Assembly (NCBI GenBank): GCA_947463125.1
Contig: CANHQZ010000009.1
Coordinates: 1 to 62,637, forward strand
Direction: 5' to 3'
DNA from: Flavobacteriales bacterium
Lineage (GTDB): Bacteria; Bacteroidota; Bacteroidia; NS11-12g; UBA955
Length of the DNA stretch: 62,637 nt
Part shown: positions 15,276-27,970 of the stretch, one piece after another
Layout: every line of letters begins with the position of its first letter
Position numbering within the stretch: the first letter of the stretch is position 1
Position numbers and translations under genes: made by a program
The notes under the pieces: generated by a model
What the model was told of the DNA's origin: nothing
Database searches by the model: none
The model's input: only the letters and a program-made list of their open reading frames with translations

Positions 15276-18200
15276 TTATTCTTTTATGAATCGGTATGTC
15301 TTGCCCGCGCGGGTTTGAATGATGTAACTTCCAGATACCAAATCATTTATATCTAACCTAAATGCGTTATTTACAGCATTTTTAAGTATCACATTTCTTA
15401 TCAGCGTACCCTTACTGTCGAAAATGCCCGCATAAATGCTGCCCGAAGATTCCGCAGGCACCATTATATAGGAAGCAGCCGGATTTGGGAAAAGCACCTT
15501 TAAGCCGCTAATATTATTTAGGCTTAAGCTGCTAAAAATGATGGGCTGACTGGTATCGCTGGCACAGCCATTCTCGGTATAAACACAACGGTAATTACCA
15601 TTGCTTGTTGCCTTGAAAACCCTGCCACTGCCTGCCAGGGTTCCTGCCTTGAACCACTGATAGGTTCCTGCACCCAAATTCTGTGCAAACAAGGTGTCGA
15701 AATTGCGGGTTACCTGTGGTATGGCCGGTGTATTGTTTACAACCAGAATTGCCGTATCGGACTGAATGAGGTTTGAAGGCCTAACACAAGGCCCGGAAAC
15801 ATTGACAGTGGCCCAGTATTTATCCCCATTCATGGGTGCAGAAATGGTCAGTGTAGCTGCAGTTCCTGTTACAGGGGTTCCGTTCTTAAACCAGCTCCAG
15901 ACTGGACTGCTGCCTGTATTGGTCCCGGAAACTGTGAGCAGTAAAGGCCTTCCGGTGCAACCCGATCCTGCGGTAATTTTAGCCGAGGCATTCACAATAT
16001 TATTCACAGTGGGTTTAACAACAGCCGTTCGAAAAGATGTTGGGGAAACACACTTTTTGTTGCTTGTAAGCAACACGCTGAAACTGTCGTTTTTAGCGGG
16101 TGCCAGATTGTAGGTTGGAGTTGTTACAGTGTTATTGAGATTTCTGCGCCAAGTGTAGGAAGTAATGCTGCCTTGCAGGGCTGTGGGAACACCTACAGAG
16201 AGCGTAAAGGTATCTCCCGCACAGAAGTTGTTGCGACTCATCTTCACGGTTGCCATAAACGGAATGGTATCCGTTACCGCAATCCAGTTGGATTTAACAA
16301 TAAAATTGCTTCCGATACTGTTTGTCGATGTGAGTTTCACCTGGTAAATACCGCCTTTTGTAAAACGGACTACAGGATTCTTATTTGTACTGTCTGTTCC
16401 TGAAAGATAAACAACATTGCGAGGCGTTATTGCCCAGCTCCATGATGTTGGATCATTGATTGTACTATCCGTAAAAACGACAGACTGATTGGAACACACA
16501 TCCCTTGAGCTGGTTCCGAAAGCAGGAATTGGCAGATTCTTGGCCCAGGCATCGCTCGTAAAAACCCCTCTCCCATGCGTTACAGCCATAATTAATTTGT
16601 CGGAAGCTCTGTAGCGGAGGTTTCTCATTTTTACAAACCCAATGCCGGCGGTATAGGCGGTCCATACAGGGCTTGTGGCGAAAATATTGTCTGTTCCGTA
16701 AATCCCGGATTCGGTTCCTACAATGGCCTCACCGATTTTGTTGGGATTTAAAAGGATACTCCAAACCGGGATGTCAGGAAGGTTGCCTTCTTTCTGCGTC
16801 CAAGTATTGCCACCATCCAGGCTGATGTATATGTTACGCATCCCCGATCCATAATTAGAAAGTGTGACAGCCAGGGTATCTCCTCCTCTTAAAGCGTGTA
16901 TATCTGAAATGTTACCCACGTTAATCGTTCCTGTTTTCTCTGTAAATGCAGGCGTCGTGGCCCATGCATCATCAGTTACGTACAGTTTCCCGGCATCATT
17001 CCCCACCCAAAGTCTAGTTTTTCCGGTGCTTAATCTGTAGGCTTTGATAGCACTTGCAAGATTACTGCCACCGAAAGTGATAGTCTGAAGGGTTCCCGGA
17101 GCTGTAGTAAGTGTCCTGCGATACAGGGTTCCATTTCCCCTGGCTGAAAAAATTCCGCTACCGTTGTCGTCCCATTCAGCCGGATTTATAAATCGACCGG
17201 TTGTTCCATCATTTATCAATGTAAATGCGGTTGGTGTAATCCAGTTATCCAGGGTGTAATAATACTGATTGTACACATAACTGGTGATTTGCTTATTGCT
17301 GTTTGACTGGGAAATAAAACAATAGGCTCCATCACCACCGGTGAGTCCGCTTACTGCGTTTTTTCCTGCATTGGTAAACCGATGGCTTCCATTATCCTGT
17401 GCTCCGGCAATCATCAGATTGGATCCCGCTGTCTGCGACATATCACCCCAATAATATTGAACTGTGCTGTAATCAAATGTACGTTCAACAATGGCTGTGG
17501 AACTGGTTGCAGCAGCCCCGATATTATTGCTGTAAAACACCCCCCCATCATTTCCGATGATACAGGTAGAGCTGCTGCCCGGTTTGAACACAAATGCATG
17601 CTGATCGGCATGCACATATGGACAATTTAAAGTGTTCATGTTGGCATTGTTCGCCCATTTGCTGATTTGGGTCCAGGAATTACCTCCATTGGCAGATCTG
17701 AACAGGTTTATAGCGCCTGCATGCACAACCAAGGAATCATTCGGATCCACCGCCAGAATTAAATCATACCATGCCTGATTTCTTGAAAAATCAGTATTGG
17801 GTATACCATTATCGGCATCATCGGGCTCTGCTCTTGTTGTCCAGTTAGCTCCCTTGTCAAAAGTGGCAACAATCGCATCGACAGTCTGGTTGTGCTCAAT
17901 CATGGCATAGACCGTATTGCTTTTTCCGGGTGCAGTAGCAACCTCTACCCTGCCGGTTTTATTGGTATGAGAATAACTTGTTGTCCAGGTTGTACCGTTA
18001 TCGCTGAACATGACACGACCCGCGCCCCTGTCAGTGCCGGCAACAGGATTATTGCGTGTGCCTACCCAAATCCGATTGTCTGATGCTATTTCAATATCAG
18101 CGACGGCGAATCTCGCTCCATTCGGTGCATTGGAAATTACATTGGTCCAGGAAGTTCCACCGTTGGTGCTTCTAAAAAGTCCGTAATTGGAACTGCCATG

Positions 18201-18953
18201 AGTAATTCCCTGATAAAAATTGGCATCGACTGCGGCGTATACTACGCTATTCCCATTCTCATTGCGAACTGCAATATCAAGCACATAAAAATAACTGGTT
18301 GTTGAAGTAAGCTGGTTCCATGTTTTGCCGGAATCGGATGTTTTCCATATACCAAATCCACGGGAAGTACTGCTGCTGGTTCCAAACCCCTCTCCTGTTC
18401 CTACATAACAAGTTCCGGGGTTTACAGGATCCCAGGCCATGCAACTCACAGTCAGGTTGCTCCACAATGAACTTACCTGCATCCACTTGCTGTTGGCATT
18501 CGTGATGTCATTGTTATACCAAAGTCCGCCTGTGACGGCCCCTGCCCAAACCTTTTTTCCTGTTGGATCTGTCGGGTCCCAGGATAAAGCGCGGGTTCTA
18601 CCTCCCACATTATTAGGACCTCTCTCCACCCAGGGAGTTGCTGTCATGCCGGGCATTGCTCTGCGGCCAATATTTCTGCCGGCAAGGCTTTGCTGTATGG
18701 CAAGCATTACCTTTTCGGGCGTTGGTTTTCCGGTTGTCGGATCCATGGTGGCAATGTACTCCTGTGCCCAGAATAAGTCAGGTGTAGCTTTATCCGCTTC
18801 CTCCGTTACCATTTTTTGTTTTGAAGCCTGTTTTACCAGTTTCTTATAGGTTCTGTTAACCTTTTTACCGTAGTTTCGGGGAGCTTTTTGGGCATTTGAT
18901 AAGGTAAAAAAACACCCAAAAAGAACAATGCCAAGCAACTTTAAGTTATTCAT
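15276..18953 (-). CDS. Large secreted T9SS type A protein with Asp-box/BNR repeats
   Basis: A 1225-residue exported protein. A signal peptide covers about residues 1-21. From about residue 100 to 780 there are sortilin/BNR-type beta-propeller repeats with Asp-box motifs (SDSGKTWNQL, STNGGTSWTNV, SANGGNSWTQI, SLDGGNTWTQK). A PKD-like domain follows (about 810-890, SWSWAITP...GGIYQVKLTS), then Ig-like regions. The last 75 residues form a type A T9SS sorting domain (VLFPNPAASYIMVP ... GTLIRNV ... SGSYIIQTRAGKTYRFI). It is probably anchored at or released from the cell surface. It lies 17 bases after hmgA on the same strand. Substrate unknown. Confidence 0.88.
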   Translation of the reverse strand: MNNLKLLGIVLFGCFFTLSNAQKAPRNYGKKVNRTYKKLVKQASKQKMVTEEADKATPDLFWAQEYIATMDPTTGKPTPEKVMLAIQQSLAGRNIGRRAMPGMTATPWVERGPNNVGGRTRALSWDPTDPTGKKVWAGAVTGGLWYNNDITNANSKWMQVSSLWSNLTVSCMAWDPVNPGTCYVGTGEGFGTSSSTSRGFGIWKTSDSGKTWNQLTSTTSYFYVLDIAVRNENGNSVVYAAVDANFYQGITHGSSNYGLFRSTNGGTSWTNVISNAPNGARFAVADIEIASDNRIWVGTRNNPVAGTDRGAGRVMFSDNGTTWTTSYSHTNKTGRVEVATAPGKSNTVYAMIEHNQTVDAIVATFDKGANWTTRAEPDDADNGIPNTDFSRNQAWYDLILAVDPNDSLVVHAGAINLFRSANGGNSWTQISKWANNANMNTLNCPYVHADQHAFVFKPGSSSTCIIGNDGGVFYSNNIGAAATSSTAIVERTFDYSTVQYYWGDMSQTAGSNLMIAGAQDNGSHRFTNAGKNAVSGLTGGDGAYCFISQSNSNKQITSYVYNQYYYTLDNWITPTAFTLINDGTTGRFINPAEWDDNGSGIFSARGNGTLYRRTLTTAPGTLQTITFGGSNLASAIKAYRLSTGKTRLWVGNDAGKLYVTDDAWATTPAFTEKTGTINVGNISDIHALRGGDTLAVTLSNYGSGMRNIYISLDGGNTWTQKEGNLPDIPVWSILLNPNKIGEAIVGTESGIYGTDNIFATSPVWTAYTAGIGFVKMRNLRYRASDKLIMAVTHGRGVFTSDAWAKNLPIPAFGTSSRDVCSNQSVVFTDSTINDPTSWSWAITPRNVVYLSGTDSTNKNPVVRFTKGGIYQVKLTSTNSIGSNFIVKSNWIAVTDTIPFMATVKMSRNNFCAGDTFTLSVGVPTALQGSITSYTWRRNLNNTVTTPTYNLAPAKNDSFSVLLTSNKKCVSPTSFRTAVVKPTVNNIVNASAKITAGSGCTGRPLLLTVSGTNTGSSPVWSWFKNGTPVTGTAATLTISAPMNGDKYWATVNVSGPCVRPSNLIQSDTAILVVNNTPAIPQVTRNFDTLFAQNLGAGTYQWFKAGTLAGSGRVFKATSNGNYRCVYTENGCASDTSQPIIFSSLSLNNISGLKVLFPNPAASYIMVPAESSGSIYAGIFDSKGTLIRNVILKNAVNNAFRLDINDLVSGSYIIQTRAGKTYRFIKE

Positions 18954-18970: not shown

Positions 18971-20128
18971 TTATTCCACCCAGCTTTTCCAGTAGGCAGG
19001 ATCTTCCAGTTTAAGGGCTTCTTCGGTAATCATCAGCGGGGCAAAGGGATCTATCATTACCGCGAGTTCTCGGGTTTCCTTCTGGCCCAGGCTCTTTTCC
19101 ACCGTTCCGGGGTGCGGTCCGTGTGGAATTCCCTTCGGGTGGAGTGTAATCATTCCCCGCTCTACATGCTTGCGGCTCATAAAGTCGCCGTCGATGTAAT
19201 ACAAAATTTCATCACTGTCCACATTGCTATGGTTGTAGGGAGCAGGCACGCTCAGCGGATGGTAATCATACAAACGTGGCACAAAACTGCAAATCACATA
19301 ACCCTTTCCTTCAAAAGTCTGATGAATGGGTGGCGGCATATGCAGCCTGCCTGTGATGGGCTCGTAATTATGTATGCTGAATCCAAACGGATACAAAAAT
19401 CCGTCCCAACCAACAGCATCAAAAGGATGTGTAGCATAGGTGTAGGGCCAAATGGATTCCTGTTTTTTAATCATCACCCGAAACTCCCCCTTTTCATCGT
19501 GGGTCTGTATACTATGAGGCAGTTTGATGTCGCGCTCGCAATAGGGAGAATGTTCAAGCAACTGCCCCATGCTATTCTGATAACGCTTGGGCGGATAAAC
19601 AGGGCTGGGCGATTCTACAAAAAAGATGCGATTATTGGTTCCATTGAAATGCAGCTTATAAATGGTGCCACGTGGAATTACCAGATAGTCGCCATACTCA
19701 AAATCAATACGGCCGTAGATTGTTTCAAGATAACCTTCACCTTCGTGAACAAACAAAACCTCGTCCCCATCTGCATTCTTAAAGAAATAATCATTCATAC
19801 TTTGGGTAGGAGCAGCTACACCAATCTGAATATCGCTGTTCATGAGCAGCACTTTCCGACTTTTTATATAATCTGCCTCTGCAGGAACATTCCATGTCAA
19901 ATAACTGCGGTGCTGCATATTTTTCTTCATGGCAACTTTCGGCTCTATGCTTATGGGTTCGCCAATATGCGAAACCAGCGTAGGCGGATAGCAATGATAA
20001 ATAAGCGAATAAATGCTGTTAAAACCTTCAGTACTAACCAGTTCTTCAGCGTACAATTCCCCATTCGGTTTGCGAAACTGGGTATGTCTTTTTGCAGGTA
20101 TCTTACCTGCTTTGTGATAAAAGGCCAT
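18971..20128 (-). CDS. hmgA: Homogentisate 1,2-dioxygenase
   Basis: This iron enzyme opens the ring of homogentisate to maleylacetoacetate in tyrosine and phenylalanine breakdown. The 385-residue protein has the family N-terminus (MAFYHKAGKIPAKRHTQFRK), the cupin core, and the iron-site region with PYNHSNVDSDE, YIDGDFMSR and LHPKGIPHGPHPG. A start 19 codons upstream is possible, but the -7 box TATATTTG lies within that extension, so the ATG at 20128 is preferred. No other gene for tyrosine catabolism is in the window; downstream on the same strand are a T9SS protein and the broken binding-protein gene. Confidence 0.93.
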   Translation of the reverse strand: MAFYHKAGKIPAKRHTQFRKPNGELYAEELVSTEGFNSIYSLIYHCYPPTLVSHIGEPISIEPKVAMKKNMQHRSYLTWNVPAEADYIKSRKVLLMNSDIQIGVAAPTQSMNDYFFKNADGDEVLFVHEGEGYLETIYGRIDFEYGDYLVIPRGTIYKLHFNGTNNRIFFVESPSPVYPPKRYQNSMGQLLEHSPYCERDIKLPHSIQTHDEKGEFRVMIKKQESIWPYTYATHPFDAVGWDGFLYPFGFSIHNYEPITGRLHMPPPIHQTFEGKGYVICSFVPRLYDYHPLSVPAPYNHSNVDSDEILYYIDGDFMSRKHVERGMITLHPKGIPHGPHPGTVEKSLGQKETRELAVMIDPFAPLMITEEALKLEDPAYWKSWVE

Positions 20129-20147
20129 TGCGTTTTTGTATTCAGCA

Positions 20148-20155
20148 CAAATATA
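20148..20155 (-). promoter_or_regulatory. -7 promoter box for hmgA
   Basis: TATATTTG on the minus strand lies 19 bases before the chosen ATG at 20128. Confidence 0.5.
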
Positions 20156-20272
20156 AGTTACAGGATTTAATTCTTTATAAAACACCCATAAATCCGACGT
20201 CGTTTAAAACCTAAACTAAACATATAATAATACGCTCACAATAAATTTTATATTAATAATTTAAAAATATTT

Positions 20273-20337: not shown

Positions 20338-21249
20338 ATGAAGTTTACCCTGCCGTTCATCGCTGTTTTCGTGCTGATTTCTTCATGCACGAAAACAGAA
20401 GACATTCTTATTTCGGGCAATCAGCCGCCTGACTACCGGTCTGTGCCCACCATTAAGGTTGAAAACTATGTAAACCGATATTTTATTGACCTGCTTGGCC
20501 GTGAACCAACAGATACCGAGCGTGTTTACCACACCGAATTTCTGAAACGCAACAGGCTAAGTATTCAAGCCAGGGATACGTTGGTGAATATGCTTCTGTA
20601 TGATACCACTTTTCATCCAGGTGATTCCAGCTACCGCCATGCTGCCATTCAGCGCATCTACGACTTAAGCAAAGCTCGTTTTTTGGAAGGAGCCAGCGAC
20701 GGGGATATCGCACAGTTTATCGGAATTCTGGAATTCAGCATTACAATATCACGTCTGAATGGCGATTCAGTGGGTGTTTATTCTGCAAAAGCCGCACAGA
20801 AAAATTACCGCGACGTACTGCTGAGTCGCTACCGATTATTGAAAAACAAGGGAACCTATAATGACATGTGCGCCTACATGCTCAACAACCCCATTTATGA
20901 TCAGATCAACATGAACAGTTTTAATTACGTAAATGCCAGTTTTGATGATCTGTTTCAGCGTCAGCCACTGAAAGATGAGTTCACCGCCGCCTATGATATC
21001 ATTGACAAAAACATACCCCGTCAAATTTTCGGTCGCTGGGCAGCCAACAAAAATGAATATTGTGATGTCTTAACCCATACACCCGAATTTTACGAAGCAC
21101 AAATACGATGGGTTTATTATCTGCTCCTTCAAAGAGATGCCAACACACAGGAGGTAATCAACCTGCTCGGAAACTATATGCGAAGCGATAATCTACAAGA
21201 AGTTCAAAAAGCCGTAATAAAAACCGATGAATATGCACAATTCAGGTAA
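20338..21249 (+). CDS. Lipoprotein of unknown function, first gene of coupled cassette
   Basis: A 303-residue predicted lipoprotein with a lipobox ending at C17 (FVLISSC). ATG at 20338 is preferred over an in-frame ATG at 20305 because it gives a normal lipoprotein signal and lies after the inverted repeat. After a short linker, residues about 40-60 read YVNRYFIDLLGREPTDTE, which resembles the helical LGRxPTxxE segment of DUF1549 and DUF4214 proteins. The rest is helical and hydrophilic. I do not recognise a known family with confidence. The next gene begins inside its last eight codons, so the two are translationally linked. It is probably attached to a membrane facing the periplasm. Confidence 0.75.
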   Translation: MKFTLPFIAVFVLISSCTKTEDILISGNQPPDYRSVPTIKVENYVNRYFIDLLGREPTDTERVYHTEFLKRNRLSIQARDTLVNMLLYDTTFHPGDSSYRHAAIQRIYDLSKARFLEGASDGDIAQFIGILEFSITISRLNGDSVGVYSAKAAQKNYRDVLLSRYRLLKNKGTYNDMCAYMLNNPIYDQINMNSFNYVNASFDDLFQRQPLKDEFTAAYDIIDKNIPRQIFGRWAANKNEYCDVLTHTPEFYEAQIRWVYYLLLQRDANTQEVINLLGNYMRSDNLQEVQKAVIKTDEYAQFR

Positions 21250-21727
21250 TAAAATATCCTTACTGCTGCTGTCTGTGGCGGTTTTGTCATCATGCACCAA
21301 GGAGAAAAACGTAACATTTGGTGTAAATGATAAAATTGTTTACGAAGATAAAAGCCTCAAAACCAAGCGCAAGTCTGATGCAGAGTATATTTCTATTTTG
21401 TATACAAACCTGTATCAGGTTCCCATATCGCCTACCCAGCTTTACAAAACCCAGAATGTAATTTACAGTATTGGTGACCGCAATGTGGCTAATGAAATGG
21501 TTTTGAGCAACTATTTCAATACATCGACCTTAAAAATCCCGAAAGACAGCGAAATGCGTGCCGATGTGGCCGCATTTGTGGAGAAATGTTATAAGCGATT
21601 TTTTCTTCGTTATCCCTCGGAAGGAGAAAAAACCTTTTTTATTAATTACATAAAAAGCAATCCAAACGTGACGGTAGAAATGGTATACACCGCATTTTCT
21701 GTAAGCGATGAATACCAGTACTATTAA
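21227..21727 (+). CDS. Small lipoprotein of unknown function
   Basis: A 166-residue predicted lipoprotein with a lipobox at AVLSSC (C23 counted from the ATG at 21227; a second ATG at 21233 is possible). It overlaps the previous gene by 23 bases. The mature part looks like a shorter relative of the first cassette protein: DAEYISILYTNLYQVPISP and FVEKCYKRFFLRYPSEGEKTFF echo the IDLLGREPT region and suggest two copies of a similar helical motif. The DUF1501 gene follows 9 bases later. No function is assigned. Confidence 0.72.
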   Translation: MNMHNSGNKISLLLLSVAVLSSCTKEKNVTFGVNDKIVYEDKSLKTKRKSDAEYISILYTNLYQVPISPTQLYKTQNVIYSIGDRNVANEMVLSNYFNTSTLKIPKDSEMRADVAAFVEKCYKRFFLRYPSEGEKTFFINYIKSNPNVTVEMVYTAFSVSDEYQYY

Positions 21728-21736
21728 AACTCAACC

Positions 21737-23080
21737 ATGAACAGAAGAGATTTTTTCAAAAAGACAGGGATGGTAACCGCCGGAACGGTGGCTGCACCTT
21801 ACATACTGCCAACCGGCAGAATGTTTGCCCGAACCAATACGCCGAAAGCAGAATACGTTGTCATGGTAATGTTTGCCGGAGGTGTACGTCAGCAGGAAAG
21901 TGTATTGCAGCGTTATCTGGACGACAGTCAGGATGTGACAGGCGCAGCAGGCAATATCATGCCCAATTTGTTTACGGGAACAGCCCCCGACCGAAAAATA
22001 GTATATGGAACCGATCCGGGCGGCGGAGCTACCCGCGGAAGTGAGCCTATCCCCCGCATACTTAGTCAGAGTATGGAAGATACGGGCACGGTGTTTAAGG
22101 AAATGTCGGCCATAAGCGCAGGACATTACGTGGGACTCAACACACTGATTACGGGCAGCCTGGGCACAGCACAGGGCCTTAAAACACGCCCAAAATACCC
22201 AACCATTTTTGAATACCTGAGAAAACACGCCGGGTTTGCTGCGCTGGATACCTGGTTTATTGCCAACGGACTGGGCAACAGCACTCCCCTGCTGAATAGC
22301 AGTAAAAATCCGGATTACGGTTTGCAATACGGAGGCAACATGTTTGCAGCACCCTACACTTTTGGCAGTGTGGGCAGGGAAATACTTGGCAACGGAAAGC
22401 CTTATTCCAGAGCCGACCTGGACCCCATGTATTACATGAAGAACTTTTTGGATCAGAGTTTTGGCCTGAGTCCGGATCAGCTGGAAACGATAAAAAACAC
22501 CGATGAGGAAAAGACCAAGATCAAAGAATTTATTCGTGCGGTATTTCAGCGTCAGGACCAGGGTCTGATTCCCCGCCCGCCTGTATCCGACAATGGAGAT
22601 GCCGTAACCATAAGCTATGCCGCTGAAGTATTGCGTCATTTCAAACCCAAGTTCCTAACCTTGAATATGAGTGCAGTGGATGGCTGCCACAGCAATTTTA
22701 CAGGCTATCTCCGCAGCCTGCACCGCGCCGACCATTCCGTGGGCTGGCTCTGGAATTATATTCAGAATAATATTCCTGAAATGTCGGGCAAAACCATCAT
22801 GATTGTGGCTCCGGAATGTGGAAGAAACCTCAATCCCAATCCGATTCTGGATGAAAATGACTGGTATGCCTATGACCATAGCGATGCCAATGCCATGCGC
22901 GTCTGGTCGGTTATGGTTGGTAAAAATGTACCCAAAATGTCTGTTGGCTCCGAAGGTAACCGTGTAGGAAAACTCACAGACATTGTTCCCACCATCGCCG
23001 ATATATTCGGTGTTTACGATGAAGTGAAGGCCAGTCCATATCTTGATCCTCAGTCTAAGAGTTTATTCCTGAGAATGTGA
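21737..23080 (+). CDS. DUF1501 family exported protein (alkaline-phosphatase-superfamily fold)
   Basis: A 447-residue protein starting with a twin-arginine-like signal (MNRRDFFKKTGMVTAGTVAA), so it is probably exported folded by Tat. It matches DUF1501: the opening VVMVMFAGGVRQQESV, a DGCHSNF segment at about 315, APECGRN (the family's EFGR position), YDHSD and DIVPTIADIFGV near the end. DUF1501 proteins are related to sulfatases and alkaline phosphatases, but their substrates are mostly unknown. In Planctomycetes such genes often sit beside DUF1549/DUF1553 genes. Here the neighbours are small lipoproteins and a heme-like lipoprotein. The start of the next gene overlaps its stop (TGATG). Confidence 0.87.
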   Translation: MNRRDFFKKTGMVTAGTVAAPYILPTGRMFARTNTPKAEYVVMVMFAGGVRQQESVLQRYLDDSQDVTGAAGNIMPNLFTGTAPDRKIVYGTDPGGGATRGSEPIPRILSQSMEDTGTVFKEMSAISAGHYVGLNTLITGSLGTAQGLKTRPKYPTIFEYLRKHAGFAALDTWFIANGLGNSTPLLNSSKNPDYGLQYGGNMFAAPYTFGSVGREILGNGKPYSRADLDPMYYMKNFLDQSFGLSPDQLETIKNTDEEKTKIKEFIRAVFQRQDQGLIPRPPVSDNGDAVTISYAAEVLRHFKPKFLTLNMSAVDGCHSNFTGYLRSLHRADHSVGWLWNYIQNNIPEMSGKTIMIVAPECGRNLNPNPILDENDWYAYDHSDANAMRVWSVMVGKNVPKMSVGSEGNRVGKLTDIVPTIADIFGVYDEVKASPYLDPQSKSLFLRM

Positions 23081-24030
23081 TGAAAAAGACGCACCTAATT
23101 CCTACAATCCTGTCTGCATTGCTGGTGTTTGGTATTGCATGCAAAAAAGAGGGTTCATCCATTGACAACCCCTACGGAAAACCAATTAAAATCAACCGCG
23201 ACACCACCACATCCCGTGATTCATCTGCTGATGCAACCAGCATACAGGGATTGCACCGAGATTTGTTTGCTCCTACCTGCGCCAACAGCGGCTGCCATGA
23301 CGGTACATTTGAACCTGATTTCAGAACCGTGGAAAGTTCATTTGCCTCGCTGGTGAATGTAAAACCCATCAAAAATGACCAGGCCGGCACTTTCAATGCC
23401 AGGGTTTTACCCGGCAATGCCGATGCAAGTATGCTCATATACAGAATGACCGTGGATTTGGGAGGCAATTCGGGGATTATGCCGCTTGCACTTGAGCCTG
23501 GCAGCAACTTCCCTGCTTTAAAGGACAAGTTGATGGCCAACCTGAAACAATGGATTGATAAAGGTGCGCCCGATTCCAAGGGGAATAAACCGGGGGGTGT
23601 TAATTTTCCCCCGCAAATTCTGGGCGTACAGGCCTTAATCAACGGTTCCCCGCTGGGTCGTGGTGGTAAATACGAGCCCATTGTTGCTCAGCCCGGTCAA
23701 ATCCTGGAACTTTGGTTTTCACTGGCCGATGATGTGCTTAACCAGGAAAACCTTACAGGCATGAGTATTAACTGGTCCAACAACCCTGAAAATTTTGATC
23801 CAGCCAATGAAAAACCTTTGGTAAAAGGCACGCCTAAAAACCTGCCCGGCTTATATGCCACCTCCACCCCGTACGTTTGGTATTTTCCATTTTCTACTTC
23901 AGGCCTGCAATCTTACGATGTGGTGTGGTTCAGAATTACCTGCAGTGACAATATCAATAACAATTACCAGTTGCCCAATACCAATAGTATGTTTTTCCTG
24001 AAAAAGTACTTTGCATTGCGAATACCATGA
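23080..24030 (+). CDS. Lipoprotein with a CX4CH cytochrome-like motif
   Basis: A 316-residue predicted lipoprotein with lipobox GIAC (C21). A GTG one codon upstream is in frame, but ATG at 23080 gives the usual MKKT start and a TGATG overlap with DUF1501. Residues 62-75 (FAPTCANSGCHDGT) hold two cysteines and a histidine spaced as CX4CH, close to the CXXCH heme-binding motif. The segment continues like the small cytochrome-type domains of Planctomycete proteins (NADASMLIYRM ... IMPL ... LKQWIDKGAP). The C-terminal half is beta-rich and ends in an aromatic, surface-type region. Heme attachment through CX4CH is known but rare, so heme binding is uncertain. Confidence 0.75.
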   Translation: MKKTHLIPTILSALLVFGIACKKEGSSIDNPYGKPIKINRDTTTSRDSSADATSIQGLHRDLFAPTCANSGCHDGTFEPDFRTVESSFASLVNVKPIKNDQAGTFNARVLPGNADASMLIYRMTVDLGGNSGIMPLALEPGSNFPALKDKLMANLKQWIDKGAPDSKGNKPGGVNFPPQILGVQALINGSPLGRGGKYEPIVAQPGQILELWFSLADDVLNQENLTGMSINWSNNPENFDPANEKPLVKGTPKNLPGLYATSTPYVWYFPFSTSGLQSYDVVWFRITCSDNINNNYQLPNTNSMFFLKKYFALRIP

Positions 24031-24476
24031 GAATTATTTGCGCTTTCATATTAACCCTGGTATTCTTGCCTTTGCTGAACAGCTGTAAAGAGGTGGTAAA
24101 CAATACAGGCAATCCTGTACCCCGTATTGCATTGGTAAAAATAGAACCCACACAGGTAAAACAGTTTACCGATTCGCTAAAAATTACCTTTAACTATGAA
24201 GATGGTGATGGCGATTTGGGTAATGACAATGCAGATATAAACAGCCTTGAAGTGCAGGATGAAAGACTAACCAAAGCAGACTATTACCATGTACCGCCAA
24301 TGGCACCCGTAGATGCCCGGATTCGCATTAAAGGTCAAATGACGATGAACCTCCGAAATGTATTTCTTTTAGGTACCGGAAATTTGGAAACCACATCCTT
24401 TACGGTTAGAATAAAAGACAGGGCCGGTAACTGGAGCAATCCCATTAAAACACCGGAAATTACAATTACACGCTGA
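24027..24476 (+). CDS. Small lipoprotein with acidic DGDGD segment
   Basis: A 149-residue predicted lipoprotein with lipobox LLNSC (C20). It overlaps the previous gene by 4 bases (ATGA). The mature part is beta-rich, with an acidic stretch NYEDGDGDLGNDNAD at about residues 55-70 that could bind calcium, and an Ig-like ending (TSFTVRIKDRAGNWSNPI). Such short lipoproteins are common in Bacteroidota next to surface proteins. Its stop overlaps the start of the large T9SS gene by one base. Function unknown. Confidence 0.72.
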   Translation: MRIICAFILTLVFLPLLNSCKEVVNNTGNPVPRIALVKIEPTQVKQFTDSLKITFNYEDGDGDLGNDNADINSLEVQDERLTKADYYHVPPMAPVDARIRIKGQMTMNLRNVFLLGTGNLETTSFTVRIKDRAGNWSNPIKTPEITITR

Positions 24477-27400
24477 TGCTGAAAAAGCTGTTTTGCATAT
24501 GGGTATTGTCTTTTTGGGTTCTGGGGATGCAAGCCCAGACAGAAGTTTTCATGCAAAATGGCAGAGTAAGGGTTTGCAAAGGCCTGTTCAAAGACAGCGA
24601 AAAGGGCAAAACTAAAGGTGATTACGACCACAACGAAAACTACACCCTAACGCTCAGTGTGCCCGGAGCGAAAAACATCAAGCTAGTTTTCAAATCCTTT
24701 TGCACGGAAAAAGATCATGATATTCTCAGAATTTTTGACGGCAAAGACACTTTTGCAACCTTGATGGGGCGCTGGAGCGGGAGCAAAGGCCCGGGAACCG
24801 TTGTCAGCAAGGATAGTTTTATTACCATTCATTTTAAAACTGATAAAAGTGTTGCCTGTTACGGATGGGAGGCAGATATCATTACCACTATCATCCCTCC
24901 TCCCACACCTGTATTCACCCTAAATAGTCTTGTAAAATGCAATGCAAAGTCATTTAAAGTTAACAGCAACCGCCAGATCCCTTGTGACAGTATTAAAGCA
25001 TCGCTGGCCTCTCTCACAGGGCCTTTTGGCATAGTTGGCATAACTACAATCACCCCGGATAATTGTTCAGGAGGAAAGGCATCCATATTTACGGTAAATA
25101 CCATAAACCCACTTGCACTGAATGGTACGTACACATTTCAGTTAAATGTGTACTGGAAAGATTTTTGCGACAGCGTTTATTTAACCACCAGTAAATTGAA
25201 TTTCAGTGTCTCAGATTGTCCACTTAAAGTAATACTAAAAGCTGATTCTGATACCTTATGCAAAGGCAGCTGTACCTTTTTAAGGGCTACTGTAAGCGGT
25301 GGAAACGCATCCAAATATGTTTATACCTGGACACCGACACTCACAGGTGCCGGCCCGCACAGGGTTTGCCCCGGCATTTCTACCCGATATATTCTTAGGG
25401 TTACAGACGGCAGTTCAATTCCTGCGGAAGATACTGTAGACATTGCCGTTCTGGATCCCCCAGTAGCTATGGCAGATACGGAAGTCTGTTACTACGGCCC
25501 AAACATTTTTCTGCGTGCGAACCCTGCCGGAGGAAAATGGCTGGGAACCGGCATTGTGAATTCTACCACAGGCGAATTCAAACCATCTGTTTTCTGGGGC
25601 AAATGCAAAGTTTGGTATCAGTACGGAAAATGCGCAGACACTGTTTTTGTAAACACCACTGCGCCTTGGAACCTCGATAATGTTTTTTGTCCGGGAAAGC
25701 CACCTCAGGCTGTATGGTGGTATGGACCTGCTGGCGGAACATGGAGTGGGCCAAAAATAACACCTACCGGGATTTTCACACCGGATGTCCCCGGAATTTA
25801 CAGAGATACATACACCTGGAAAGGTTGTAAAAGCGTAAAAACAATACGGGTGGAAAAAATGGTGGTGGCTAAATATGATACCACATGTGAATCACGCAAC
25901 AGTGACACCCTCACATTTTCTCCAAAAGGTATTTACCCCGATAATTTCCCCGGTTTAATCAATTCCTACTGGGGAACATACAATCCCAGTCTGACAGGAG
26001 GCCCAGGAAACAAATTGATCATTTGGAATGGGGGCGGATGCAAAGACACTACACGCCTAACAGTCTTGCCTAGCGAAGCAGGACCCAATGACACATTCTG
26101 TCCGGCGGCAGGTTTAAAAACACTGACCAACTTCAGGCCGTCTGCAAACTATACCTGGAGTGGAAGGGGTATCACATCTCCTGTTTCTCCCAATTACGAT
26201 CCTTCTTTTTTCTTTTCACTGGGCAAACTCACTTACATAGATACGCTTACCATTCGCAGCGGTCAATGCTCCGACCGTAAGTTTGTATTTCTGATTCCTA
26301 CCAGAATCAACAAAAAAGACACCCAGTTCTTTTGCATAGAATCACCGGTAAGAGCACTAAATAACGCACTCCTTGGACTCAGTCCCGACGGCGGATTCTG
26401 GTCAGGTCCGGGAATAACCGGCGTTAACGGCTTTAATGCAAGTTTGGCCGGTTTTGGTCATCATAAAGTTGTATACAATAAGAATGGTTGCCGCGATACA
26501 CTCAATGTCTTTGTCAGACCTAAGCCGACAGCACAGAGCGATACGGCTGTATGCAACACTTCAGCGCCTTTTAATTGCAGGGCAGGCGAAACCGGGGGGG
26601 CCTTCAATGGAAAAGGAATTACAAACGCTGCACTGGGAACCTTTAATCCTGCTGTTGCAGGACCCGGAACCCATGTTATAACATTCAGAAACAAATGGGG
26701 TTGCACGACCTCCTTTAATATCAGGGTGGATGCTTCCCCTGCCCTATGGTTTGTAAATCCCGTAACTGATTATTGTTATAAAAATTCAGCAAACCCGCTT
26801 ACCGCAAATATTGCCGGGGGTGTTTTTTCCGGAAGGGGGATAAACGGAAATACCTTCAACCCCTATTTGGCCGGCAGTGGCAAACAGACGCTTGCATACA
26901 CACTAGTTTCGGGCGCATGCACAGCAACAACCACAATAGATGTGACAGTTTCGGACACCCTGAAGGTCACTGTTAATCCGCCTACAGATACCATCTGTCC
27001 CGGAGAAATCGTTTGGTTGAGGGCGTCTGCAACCGGCGGCGACAAGTTTTCATACTTCTTTTCATGGAGCAACGGCCAAACAGGAAATGGCACATTTGTA
27101 AGCCCGAACACCACCACCCTTTACAAGGTAACAGTCACCGACGGTTGCAGCGAACCGGCTACAGCAGATGTACCTGTTTTCAGACACCCTAAACCCTATT
27201 TTCTGGCTGTTACCTCCCCGCCGGTTTGCTTCGGTCAGAGAGGCTGGATAAAACTGAGGATGAAGGATGCCGATCCGTACAGATTTACCTGGGACGTAAG
27301 TCCTGTATTCAACGGAGATTCGCTGAATGCCCTAAGCGGAAATCTTTACCGGGTTACGGCTGAAAATCTTAGAACCGGATGCATTACTGACACCAGCATT

Positions 27401-27970
27401 GAAATTCCCGGATTCAAAGCCATTACCGCTGCATTCATTGGCAGTATACCCAACGGTGCCCGCTGTCTTACCCCGGTTTATCCTACCCTACGCATATTCA
27501 ACAACTGCATTGGCGCGATTACAGGAACCTGGTACTGGGGAGACGGAAGCACTGAGCCATTCGATCCGTTCAGCAGCCCAAAACATACTTACTCGGGTGA
27601 AAAAAACCGCTATAAGGTAAAACTGGTGGTTCAAAATGCAGGAGGATGCACAGACAGCTCCGAAGCAGAATTCTGCTACCGAGACACAGTAGTGTATTAC
27701 ATTCCCAACGCATTTACACCAAATAATGACGGGTTTAACGACAAGCTTGAACCCGTAGTCATTGGCGCCACAGAATTCGAGATACTCATTTACAACCGCT
27801 GGGGGCAAATTGTATTTAGAAGTGAAAACCCGGCCCAATTCTGGGATGGAACTTTCAATGGTGTGCCCTGTCAGGAGGATGTTTATGCCTATCGAATTAA
27901 GTTCAAGGGGCGCAAAACACCAAACAGACAGGACAAGGGTGTCGTTTTATTGCTGAGACCCAAGAATTAG
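24476..27970 (+). CDS. Giant secreted T9SS type B protein with CUB domain and tandem GGxWxGxGI repeats
   Basis: A 1164-residue exported protein ending the cassette. A signal peptide covers about 1-20. A CUB domain follows at about 22-140 (VCKGLFKDSEKG; YTLTLSVPGAKNIKLVFKSF; CYGWEADI). From about 350 to 800 there are six degenerate repeats built on GGxWxGxGI...F(N/K)P (starts near 353, 420, 560, 638, 707 and 780). A PKD-like domain lies at about 1020-1065. Residues about 1078-1164 are a type B T9SS sorting domain (NAFTPNNDGFND; YNRWGQIVF; FWDGTFNGVPC). It is probably a surface adhesin or matrix protein presented with the other cassette products. Confidence 0.87.
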   Translation: MLKKLFCIWVLSFWVLGMQAQTEVFMQNGRVRVCKGLFKDSEKGKTKGDYDHNENYTLTLSVPGAKNIKLVFKSFCTEKDHDILRIFDGKDTFATLMGRWSGSKGPGTVVSKDSFITIHFKTDKSVACYGWEADIITTIIPPPTPVFTLNSLVKCNAKSFKVNSNRQIPCDSIKASLASLTGPFGIVGITTITPDNCSGGKASIFTVNTINPLALNGTYTFQLNVYWKDFCDSVYLTTSKLNFSVSDCPLKVILKADSDTLCKGSCTFLRATVSGGNASKYVYTWTPTLTGAGPHRVCPGISTRYILRVTDGSSIPAEDTVDIAVLDPPVAMADTEVCYYGPNIFLRANPAGGKWLGTGIVNSTTGEFKPSVFWGKCKVWYQYGKCADTVFVNTTAPWNLDNVFCPGKPPQAVWWYGPAGGTWSGPKITPTGIFTPDVPGIYRDTYTWKGCKSVKTIRVEKMVVAKYDTTCESRNSDTLTFSPKGIYPDNFPGLINSYWGTYNPSLTGGPGNKLIIWNGGGCKDTTRLTVLPSEAGPNDTFCPAAGLKTLTNFRPSANYTWSGRGITSPVSPNYDPSFFFSLGKLTYIDTLTIRSGQCSDRKFVFLIPTRINKKDTQFFCIESPVRALNNALLGLSPDGGFWSGPGITGVNGFNASLAGFGHHKVVYNKNGCRDTLNVFVRPKPTAQSDTAVCNTSAPFNCRAGETGGAFNGKGITNAALGTFNPAVAGPGTHVITFRNKWGCTTSFNIRVDASPALWFVNPVTDYCYKNSANPLTANIAGGVFSGRGINGNTFNPYLAGSGKQTLAYTLVSGACTATTTIDVTVSDTLKVTVNPPTDTICPGEIVWLRASATGGDKFSYFFSWSNGQTGNGTFVSPNTTTLYKVTVTDGCSEPATADVPVFRHPKPYFLAVTSPPVCFGQRGWIKLRMKDADPYRFTWDVSPVFNGDSLNALSGNLYRVTAENLRTGCITDTSIEIPGFKAITAAFIGSIPNGARCLTPVYPTLRIFNNCIGAITGTWYWGDGSTEPFDPFSSPKHTYSGEKNRYKVKLVVQNAGGCTDSSEAEFCYRDTVVYYIPNAFTPNNDGFNDKLEPVVIGATEFEILIYNRWGQIVFRSENPAQFWDGTFNGVPCQEDVYAYRIKFKGRKTPNRQDKGVVLLLRPKN

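Follow-up and report, generated by a model that had tools for sequence, protein, structure and literature searches.

An exported gene cassette of Bacteroidota pairing a remotely DUF1501-like protein of alkaline phosphatase fold with a PSCyt1-like lipoprotein

Introduction

The question raised by the locus described here is what six tightly packed genes for exported proteins do together in the envelope of a Bacteroidota cell. The window, i.e. the whole stretch of DNA analyzed, is a single contig of 62,637 nucleotides (CANHQZ010000009.1, contig C9) from a Bacteroidota assembly that measures 2.34 Mb, and the six-gene block (genes 1 to 6, here g1 to g6) lies at 20338-27970. The initial annotation, made from the sequence alone, described a coupled cassette of two LGRxPT-type lipoproteins, a DUF1501 protein exported by the twin-arginine translocation (Tat) pathway, a CX4CH lipoprotein, an acidic lipoprotein and a large CUB protein of the type IX secretion system (T9SS), and offered a surface hydrolase as one hypothesis. 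We find that the cassette is real and widespread, and no paper on it was found in the literature searched. On profile comparisons, the best interpretation is that it is a Bacteroidota relative, though a diverged one, of the PSCyt1-DUF1549-DUF1553 + DUF1501 and DUF1800 + DUF1501 sets, a parent kind that is itself of unknown function.

The six genes and their coding status

The members of the block are as follows.

g1, 20338-21249, + strand: 303-residue lipoprotein, lipobox C17, with repeated helical LGRxPT..E modules
g2, 21227-21727, + strand: 166-residue lipoprotein, C23, with a C-terminal DUF4214-like module at residues 114-164
g3, 21737-23080, + strand: 447-residue protein of the alkaline phosphatase (AlkP) superfamily, remotely DUF1501-like, with the Tat-like N-terminus MNRRDFF
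g4, 23077 (GTG) or 23080 (ATG) to 24030, + strand: 317-residue (GTG) or 316-residue (ATG) lipoprotein; PSCyt1-like cytochrome c domain, then an immunoglobulin (Ig)-like beta-sandwich (about residues 175-317)
g5, 24027-24476, + strand: 149-residue lipoprotein, C20, of no family, with invariant acidic positions
g6, 24476-27970, + strand: 1164-residue T9SS type B surface protein with a Sec-type start, CUB domain and Cys-rich repeats

The coordinates of the open reading frames (ORFs) bear out the six genes and their junction sizes as initially annotated: g1 and g2 overlap by 23 bases, g2 and g3 are separated by a gap of 9, g3 and g4 overlap by 4 (or by 1 with the ATG start), g4 and g5 by 4, and g5 and g6 by 1. 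The fixed stoichiometry that had been drawn from these overlaps does not follow from them; what they suggest is translational coupling. Judged by codon changes relative to same-genus relatives, all six genes are under purifying selection, strongest on g3, because nonsynonymous differences amount to 2-12% while synonymous sites are near saturation. A sigma-70 scan came out close to chance level and a terminator scan below chance.

Co-inheritance of g1 to g5 and the optional g6

A scan of species-representative genomes gave 268 relatives of g3, of which 80 were kept, all from metagenome-assembled Bacteroidota. Among these 80 of the 268, 53 carry all six genes at full length. The initial annotation had staked its case on a conserved gene order, and order and strand are kept in 53/53; well-assembled relative loci with the full set likewise read g1-g2-g3-g4-g5-g6. 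By contrast with this constancy, the gene adjacent to the block over 67 loci belongs to 36 families upstream and 34 downstream, so that the block holds together while its surroundings change. Within the class surveyed, g3 relatives are present in 84 of the 396 genomes (about a fifth), usually with one cassette copy per type per genome. A search of 58 related genomes matched g3 in 42, three of which have short solo versions only. No match was found when the plasmid collection was searched with g3 or PHROGs with g1 to g5.

The 84 genomes fall mostly into two bit-score groups, 385-850 (type A, which includes the window) and 270-340 (type B). About 48 genomes belong to the first and about 49 to the second, with 16 holding both; these are counts by score, and the split is inferred wherever the surroundings of the locus were not read. 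Five separate gene trees, one for each of g1 to g5, recover the same A/B split with support of 0.99-1.0 and no misplaced sequence, which argues that these five genes have been inherited together.

The sixth gene behaves differently. In all 14 type B loci with intact cores that were read, g1 to g5 stand in the same order with no adjacent g6, and a few type A loci (L249, L137) also lack it. The core is therefore g1 to g5, and the CUB/T9SS protein is an extra, optional member in type A. Its domains score above the curated cut-offs: the CUB domain (PF00431) occupies residues 49-133 (39.1 bits against a cut-off of 21.4), and the C-terminus (1076-1157) is a type B T9SS signal, matched by CHU_C (3e-16; 59.8 bits against 27) and TIGR04131 (5.5e-14; 52.1 bits against 35). 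These observations bear on the possibility that the whole set is a dedicated maturation or surface-assembly apparatus for g6. It would fit the position of g6 as the last gene in every complete type A locus, and the PorP/SprF gene found directly behind g6 in some Flavobacteriales, which is consistent with the view that cargo with a type B C-terminal domain is anchored via PorP-like proteins (PMC9143113). The window cassette itself has no PorP/SprF gene, and a core that persists without g6 in the 14 type B loci and in L249 and L137 makes such an apparatus very improbable. For the same reason, the T9SS protein is not supported as an essential partner.

Gene 3: an AlkP fold with an altered catalytic site

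The identification of g3 as a DUF1501 protein holds as remote homology, detected by profile, and not as a Pfam assignment. The Pfam model PF07394 gave no match to g3 or to 15 aligned homologues, its sole match in the genome being on contig C67, whereas profile-profile alignment of g3 with DUF1501 (hhalign) gave 93.8% (198 columns) and 95.2% (93 columns). Direct hidden Markov model matches of a type B member, all weak, were to Sulfatase (2e-5), Phosphodiest (6e-5, just over the Pfam cut-off) and DUF1501 (0.03). A profile alignment with Bacteroidota AlkP-type proteins reached 98.3% (E 1.9e-14), and the AlphaFold model (pTM, predicted template modeling score, 0.73; pLDDT, predicted local distance difference test, 64.8) was placed in the alkaline phosphatase superfamily by Foldseek (E 3e-8) and on PafA by VIA (Z 25.3, 291 residues, 3.5 Å). 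A sequence search of the PDB returned no relative for g3, g4 or g5.

The catalytic positions, numbered as in Escherichia coli AlkP, are D51, the nucleophile S102, D327, H331, D369, H370 and H412. By alignment these correspond in g3 to Ala47/Gly, H130, D315, H318, E360, C361 and H381, respectively, and the codons concerned are these.

22124-22126, + strand: g3 H130, the invariant His at the AlkP nucleophile position
22679-22690, + strand: g3 D315-H318 (D-G-C-H), the metal site 1 ligands D and H (AlkP D327/H331 by alignment)
22814-22819, + strand: g3 E360-C361, at the AlkP metal site 2 positions D369/H370
22877-22879, + strand: g3 H381, at the AlkP H412 position

The 81 type A and 14 type B sequences all share H130, D315, H318, E360 and H381, and the Asp, His, His set of metal site 1 is thus kept by alignment as D315, H318 and H381. 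Position 361 is Cys in 76/81 and His in 5/81 type A sequences, and His in 14/14 of type B. Because the ligand positions are invariant, with a Cys/His exchange at 361, a metal site is probably maintained. An AlkP-fold subunit that keeps its metal-ligand residues is accordingly supported, on the strength of conserved residues and not of model geometry. Of the two findings that the initial annotation said would refute it, a gene order that is not conserved and a DUF1501 protein without any metal site, neither was obtained, the second being judged on the same residues.

The same residues speak against a surface enzyme of the conventional sort, be it a phosphatase, a sulfatase or a phosphodiesterase, acting on a phosphorylated or sulfated polymer, as had been proposed initially. 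Such an enzyme would agree with the AlkP-superfamily fold and with the Phosphodiest match of the type B protein. However, an invariant His occupies the place of the expected Ser/Thr/Cys nucleophile, and Ala/Gly stands where the first-strand Asp ligand should be, in 81/81 type A and in all 14 type B sequences examined. Characterized AlkP-superfamily hydrolases use, to our knowledge, a Ser, Thr or formylglycine nucleophile. With the nucleophile changed to His and the first-strand Asp lost, the standard phosphatase or sulfatase mechanism is not available to g3. An ordinary activity of this kind is unlikely for the protein as its residues stand, and we consider the hydrolysis of phosphate or sulfate esters in the usual manner an improbable function for the cassette. 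Canonical DUF1501 proteins also have a His at the nucleophile position.

Gene 4: a PSCyt1-like domain and a candidate haem site

As with g3, the relationship of g4 is found by comparing profiles. The Pfam model of PSCyt1 (PF07635) did not match g4 or 13 homologues. An hhalign comparison of the N-terminal domain with its PSCyt1 counterpart in PSCyt1-PSCyt2-PSD1 proteins gave 95.3% (E 2.3e-8) over 124 columns, an alignment that spans the CX4CH motif and the distal Met-Pro site. Two features of the gene matter here.

23278-23298, + strand: g4 CX4CH motif (C68-ANSG-C73-H74), invariant in 74/74 homologues
23479-23481, + strand: g4 M135, invariant, candidate axial haem ligand

C68, C73, H74, M135 and P136 occur without exception in 74 sequences of type A and 14/14 of type B. 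The canonical CXXCH is absent from g4, the spacing being CX4CH in every one of these sequences, and this variant has been counted as a haem site by other authors (PMC5566968). The C-terminal half is predicted to be an Ig-like beta-sandwich, and the N-terminal domain is modeled with moderate confidence. A redox-type subunit, as initially suggested, is therefore plausible through the CX4CH motif plus Met, with g4 as a candidate haem protein, though it is unproven.

Genes 1, 2 and 5

The two upstream lipoproteins had both been called LGRxPT-type. The description suits g1, which carries the modules; g2 has no literal LGRxPT motif and just a weak DUF4214 match, which in the window protein falls just under the cut-off. 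Window g1 itself has no Pfam match. In the g1 family, phycobilisome linker matches at E<=0.1 were obtained for 6/14 members (best 1e-8), and DUF4214 matches at the same level for 6/14 members of g1 (best 6e-7) and 8/14 of g2 (best 1.7e-5). The g1 profile searched against PDB sequences gave only weak matches (0.07-0.6), all to phycobilisome linkers or related proteins of phycobilisomes. Since these modules serve as helical linkers in phycobilisomes, the analogy suggests a scaffold role for g1 and g2. There are also weak matches to PSD1/DUF1553 (0.003 for g1, 0.02 for g2) and, for g1, to PSCyt2/DUF1549 (0.012), while hhalign of g1 and g2 against PSCyt2/PSD1 stayed below 30%. The link to DUF1549/DUF1553 is thus weak at the profile level, and membership is not established.

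In g5, D59, D78 and D131 are invariant in both types, and the segments YxDGDGDLG and KDRAGNxSN are conserved. From these, a small Ig-like domain that binds calcium may be suspected.

Export signals

Lipoprotein signal peptides are present on g1, g2, g4 and g5. The lipobox Cys is invariant among homologues of g1 (C17, 74/74), g2 (C23, 78/78) and g5 (C20, 71/71), and C22 of g4 is Cys in all homologues except for one masked residue. The window g3 begins MNRRDFFKK and so contains a twin Arg. In the source genome there are genes for TatC and for proteins of cytochrome c assembly and, away from the cassette, three PorP/SprF genes. TatC and the assembly proteins were considered as discriminating partners of the cassette and dropped, being near-universal in relatives. 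Their genes permit the mechanism set out below without testing it.

In two genomes (G010:C74 and G029:C12), the cytochrome c assembly protein is of about 1030 residues and of a different type from the one of about 880 residues in the other relatives. Both genomes belong to a genus in which the complete block is limited to some members.

Possible mode of action

How might these parts work together? The reading that we favor, with somewhat less than even confidence, is that of a co-inherited exported cassette, here in its type A form, whose products would make up a metal/haem complex at the outer membrane on helical scaffolds. Gene order, co-inheritance, export signals, the g3 fold, the PSCyt1 homology of the g4 N-terminal domain and residue conservation come directly from computation; complex formation, metal and haem loading, the membrane face, the substrate and the reaction we infer along the following lines. 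The lipoproteins g1, g2, g4 and g5 would be anchored in the outer membrane, with g1 and g2 as phycobilisome-linker-like helical scaffolds keeping g3 beside g4. The AlkP-fold metalloprotein g3 would be exported pre-folded, probably via Tat. It would keep metal site 1 (D315, H318, H381) and have a rewired site 2, made up of H130 in place of the nucleophile, E360 and the Cys or His at 361. It would probably bind metal, and could either recognize an anionic (phosphorylated or sulfated) polymer or catalyze a reaction without a covalent intermediate. One c-type haem could sit on the CX4CH motif of g4, with Met as the second ligand, and would pass or store electrons. In type A, the T9SS-delivered CUB protein g6 may come in as well, to present the substrate as a surface receptor or adhesin.

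Several points weigh against this reading. The g3 model is of middling confidence, and its ligands were mapped by alignment, not by geometry. Position 4 of g3 (R4) is Lys in 28/81 homologues, such that Tat export is not certain, and the presence of TatC and cytochrome c assembly, as noted, does not discriminate. CX4CH is an unusual haem motif, and structure searches with the g4 model gave no cytochrome c fold, with matches at residues 175-317 only.

Alternatively, the complex could be non-catalytic and serve in binding or adhesion, with g3 a degenerate AlkP that binds an anionic polymer, g1, g2 and g5 structural, the Cys residues of g4 a disulfide or metal site and the whole, together with g6, a surface adhesin. 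The loss of the nucleophile and of one Asp ligand in both types of g3 would be in line with this, as would the Ig-like and CUB modules, which are typical binding folds, and the failure to retrieve a cytochrome c fold for g4. On the other hand, the other ligand positions of g3 are invariant across very diverged homologues, with the Cys/His exchange at 361, as if a metal site were being maintained, and in g4 H74 and M135 are invariant along with both Cys. A binding complex is possible, and we hold it to be doubtful.

At the other extreme, the favored metal/haem complex could be a new kind of extracytoplasmic metallo-haem enzyme, in which the nucleophile of an AlkP fold has turned into a metal-ligating His, no covalent intermediate is formed and electron transfer links this subunit to a CX4CH haem lipoprotein. 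Such an enzyme could be the ancient core of the PSCyt/DUF1501, DUF1800/DUF1501 and present sets. We put this forward as an unlikely proposal.

Genomic surroundings

The flanking HgmA-like, NFACT and UvrA genes were considered as members of the system and rejected, since they are constant in close relatives only. Next to the HgmA-like gene, at 15276-18953 on the - strand, is a gene for a 1225-residue protein with a Por_Secre_tail T9SS tail and Sortilin-Vps10 and PKD domains, which is co-located in many close relatives. Long antisense ORFs at 19112-20170 (+ strand), opposite the HgmA-like gene, and 21731-22639 (- strand), opposite g3, look like frame shadows of conserved genes and not genes.

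Short, diverged solo g3-like genes were seen at four loci: L036, L037 and L038 (genomes G029, G009 and G021) and L252 (G354). At the first three, the solo gene sits exactly between the HgmA-like and NFACT genes, the site of the full cassette in sister genomes, and no clear relics of the other cassette genes were found there. This looks like a reduction to g3 alone.

In some Flavobacteriales (L121:1173-7297 and L199:109-7194), three lipoprotein-like genes (about 458, 457 and 200 residues) and a gene for a T9SS-tailed-looking protein of about 845 residues lie upstream of the cassette, with PorP/SprF downstream.

Comparison with known systems

One of the sets nearest to the cassette is the planctomycete-type set of PSCyt1-PSCyt2(DUF1549)-PSD1(DUF1553) proteins with DUF1501. 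The two share an AlkP-fold DUF1501-like protein beside a PSCyt1 domain, helical LxRxPT modules, export and a function that is unknown (PMC5615132, PMC2754498). PSC2/PSD1 proteins have been proposed to take part in redox reactions (PMC2754498), and PSCyt genes, of unknown function, are abundant in some freshwater Verrucomicrobia, where some are linked to carbohydrate modules and sulfatases (PMC5615132). The cassette differs in having separate small lipoproteins, with most parts below Pfam thresholds, in its CX4CH haem motif and in the added g5 and g6. The initial view of the block as a Bacteroidota version of such sets thus gains support, and the link now takes in g4 and, at a weak level, g1 and g2. 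Two other Bacteroidota genomes have genes for DUF1549 (PSCyt2) proteins beside those for DUF1501 proteins, and the one protein scanned in full among these cases is PSCyt1-PSCyt2-PSD1.

A second comparison is with the DUF1800 + DUF1501 pair, which likewise joins an exported helical protein to a DUF1501 protein. Operon-linked pairs of this kind occur in bacterial chitin synthase operons, the DUF1501 protein having a twin-arginine motif (PMC5122149). The source genome has a separate pair on contig C67 (L198:1683-4932), whose DUF1501 protein has a Por_Secre_tail T9SS signal at its end. The pair is without cytochrome or lipoprotein subunits, and DUF1800 was not detected in g1 or g2 of the cassette.

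Two broader families share single parts. The AlkP superfamily (PafA, sulfatases, NPPs) has the fold and the metal site 1 ligands of g3, but in g3 the nucleophile has become His and one site 2 Asp is lost. T9SS type B cargo with PorP/SprF (SprB/SprF, PG1035/PorP) resembles the C-terminus of g6 and, in some Flavobacteriales, the adjacency of PorP/SprF (PMC9143113); the difference is that g6 stands behind a five-gene lipoprotein/AlkP core.

The cassette may mark an undescribed envelope enzyme and, given its presence in 84/396 genomes of the class, may serve an envelope function that is common among freshwater and marine Bacteroidota yet has gone unseen. It is a compact, co-inherited version with its parts as distinct genes, which opens the DUF1501 question to tests on five small proteins, and it yields predictions at the level of residues: a His for the nucleophile, a Cys/His ligand swap, and CX4CH plus Met. 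Set beside the two known sets, it is a third arrangement of similar parts, namely one or more helical proteins and an AlkP-fold DUF1501-like protein, with a PSCyt1-type cytochrome domain in two of the three.

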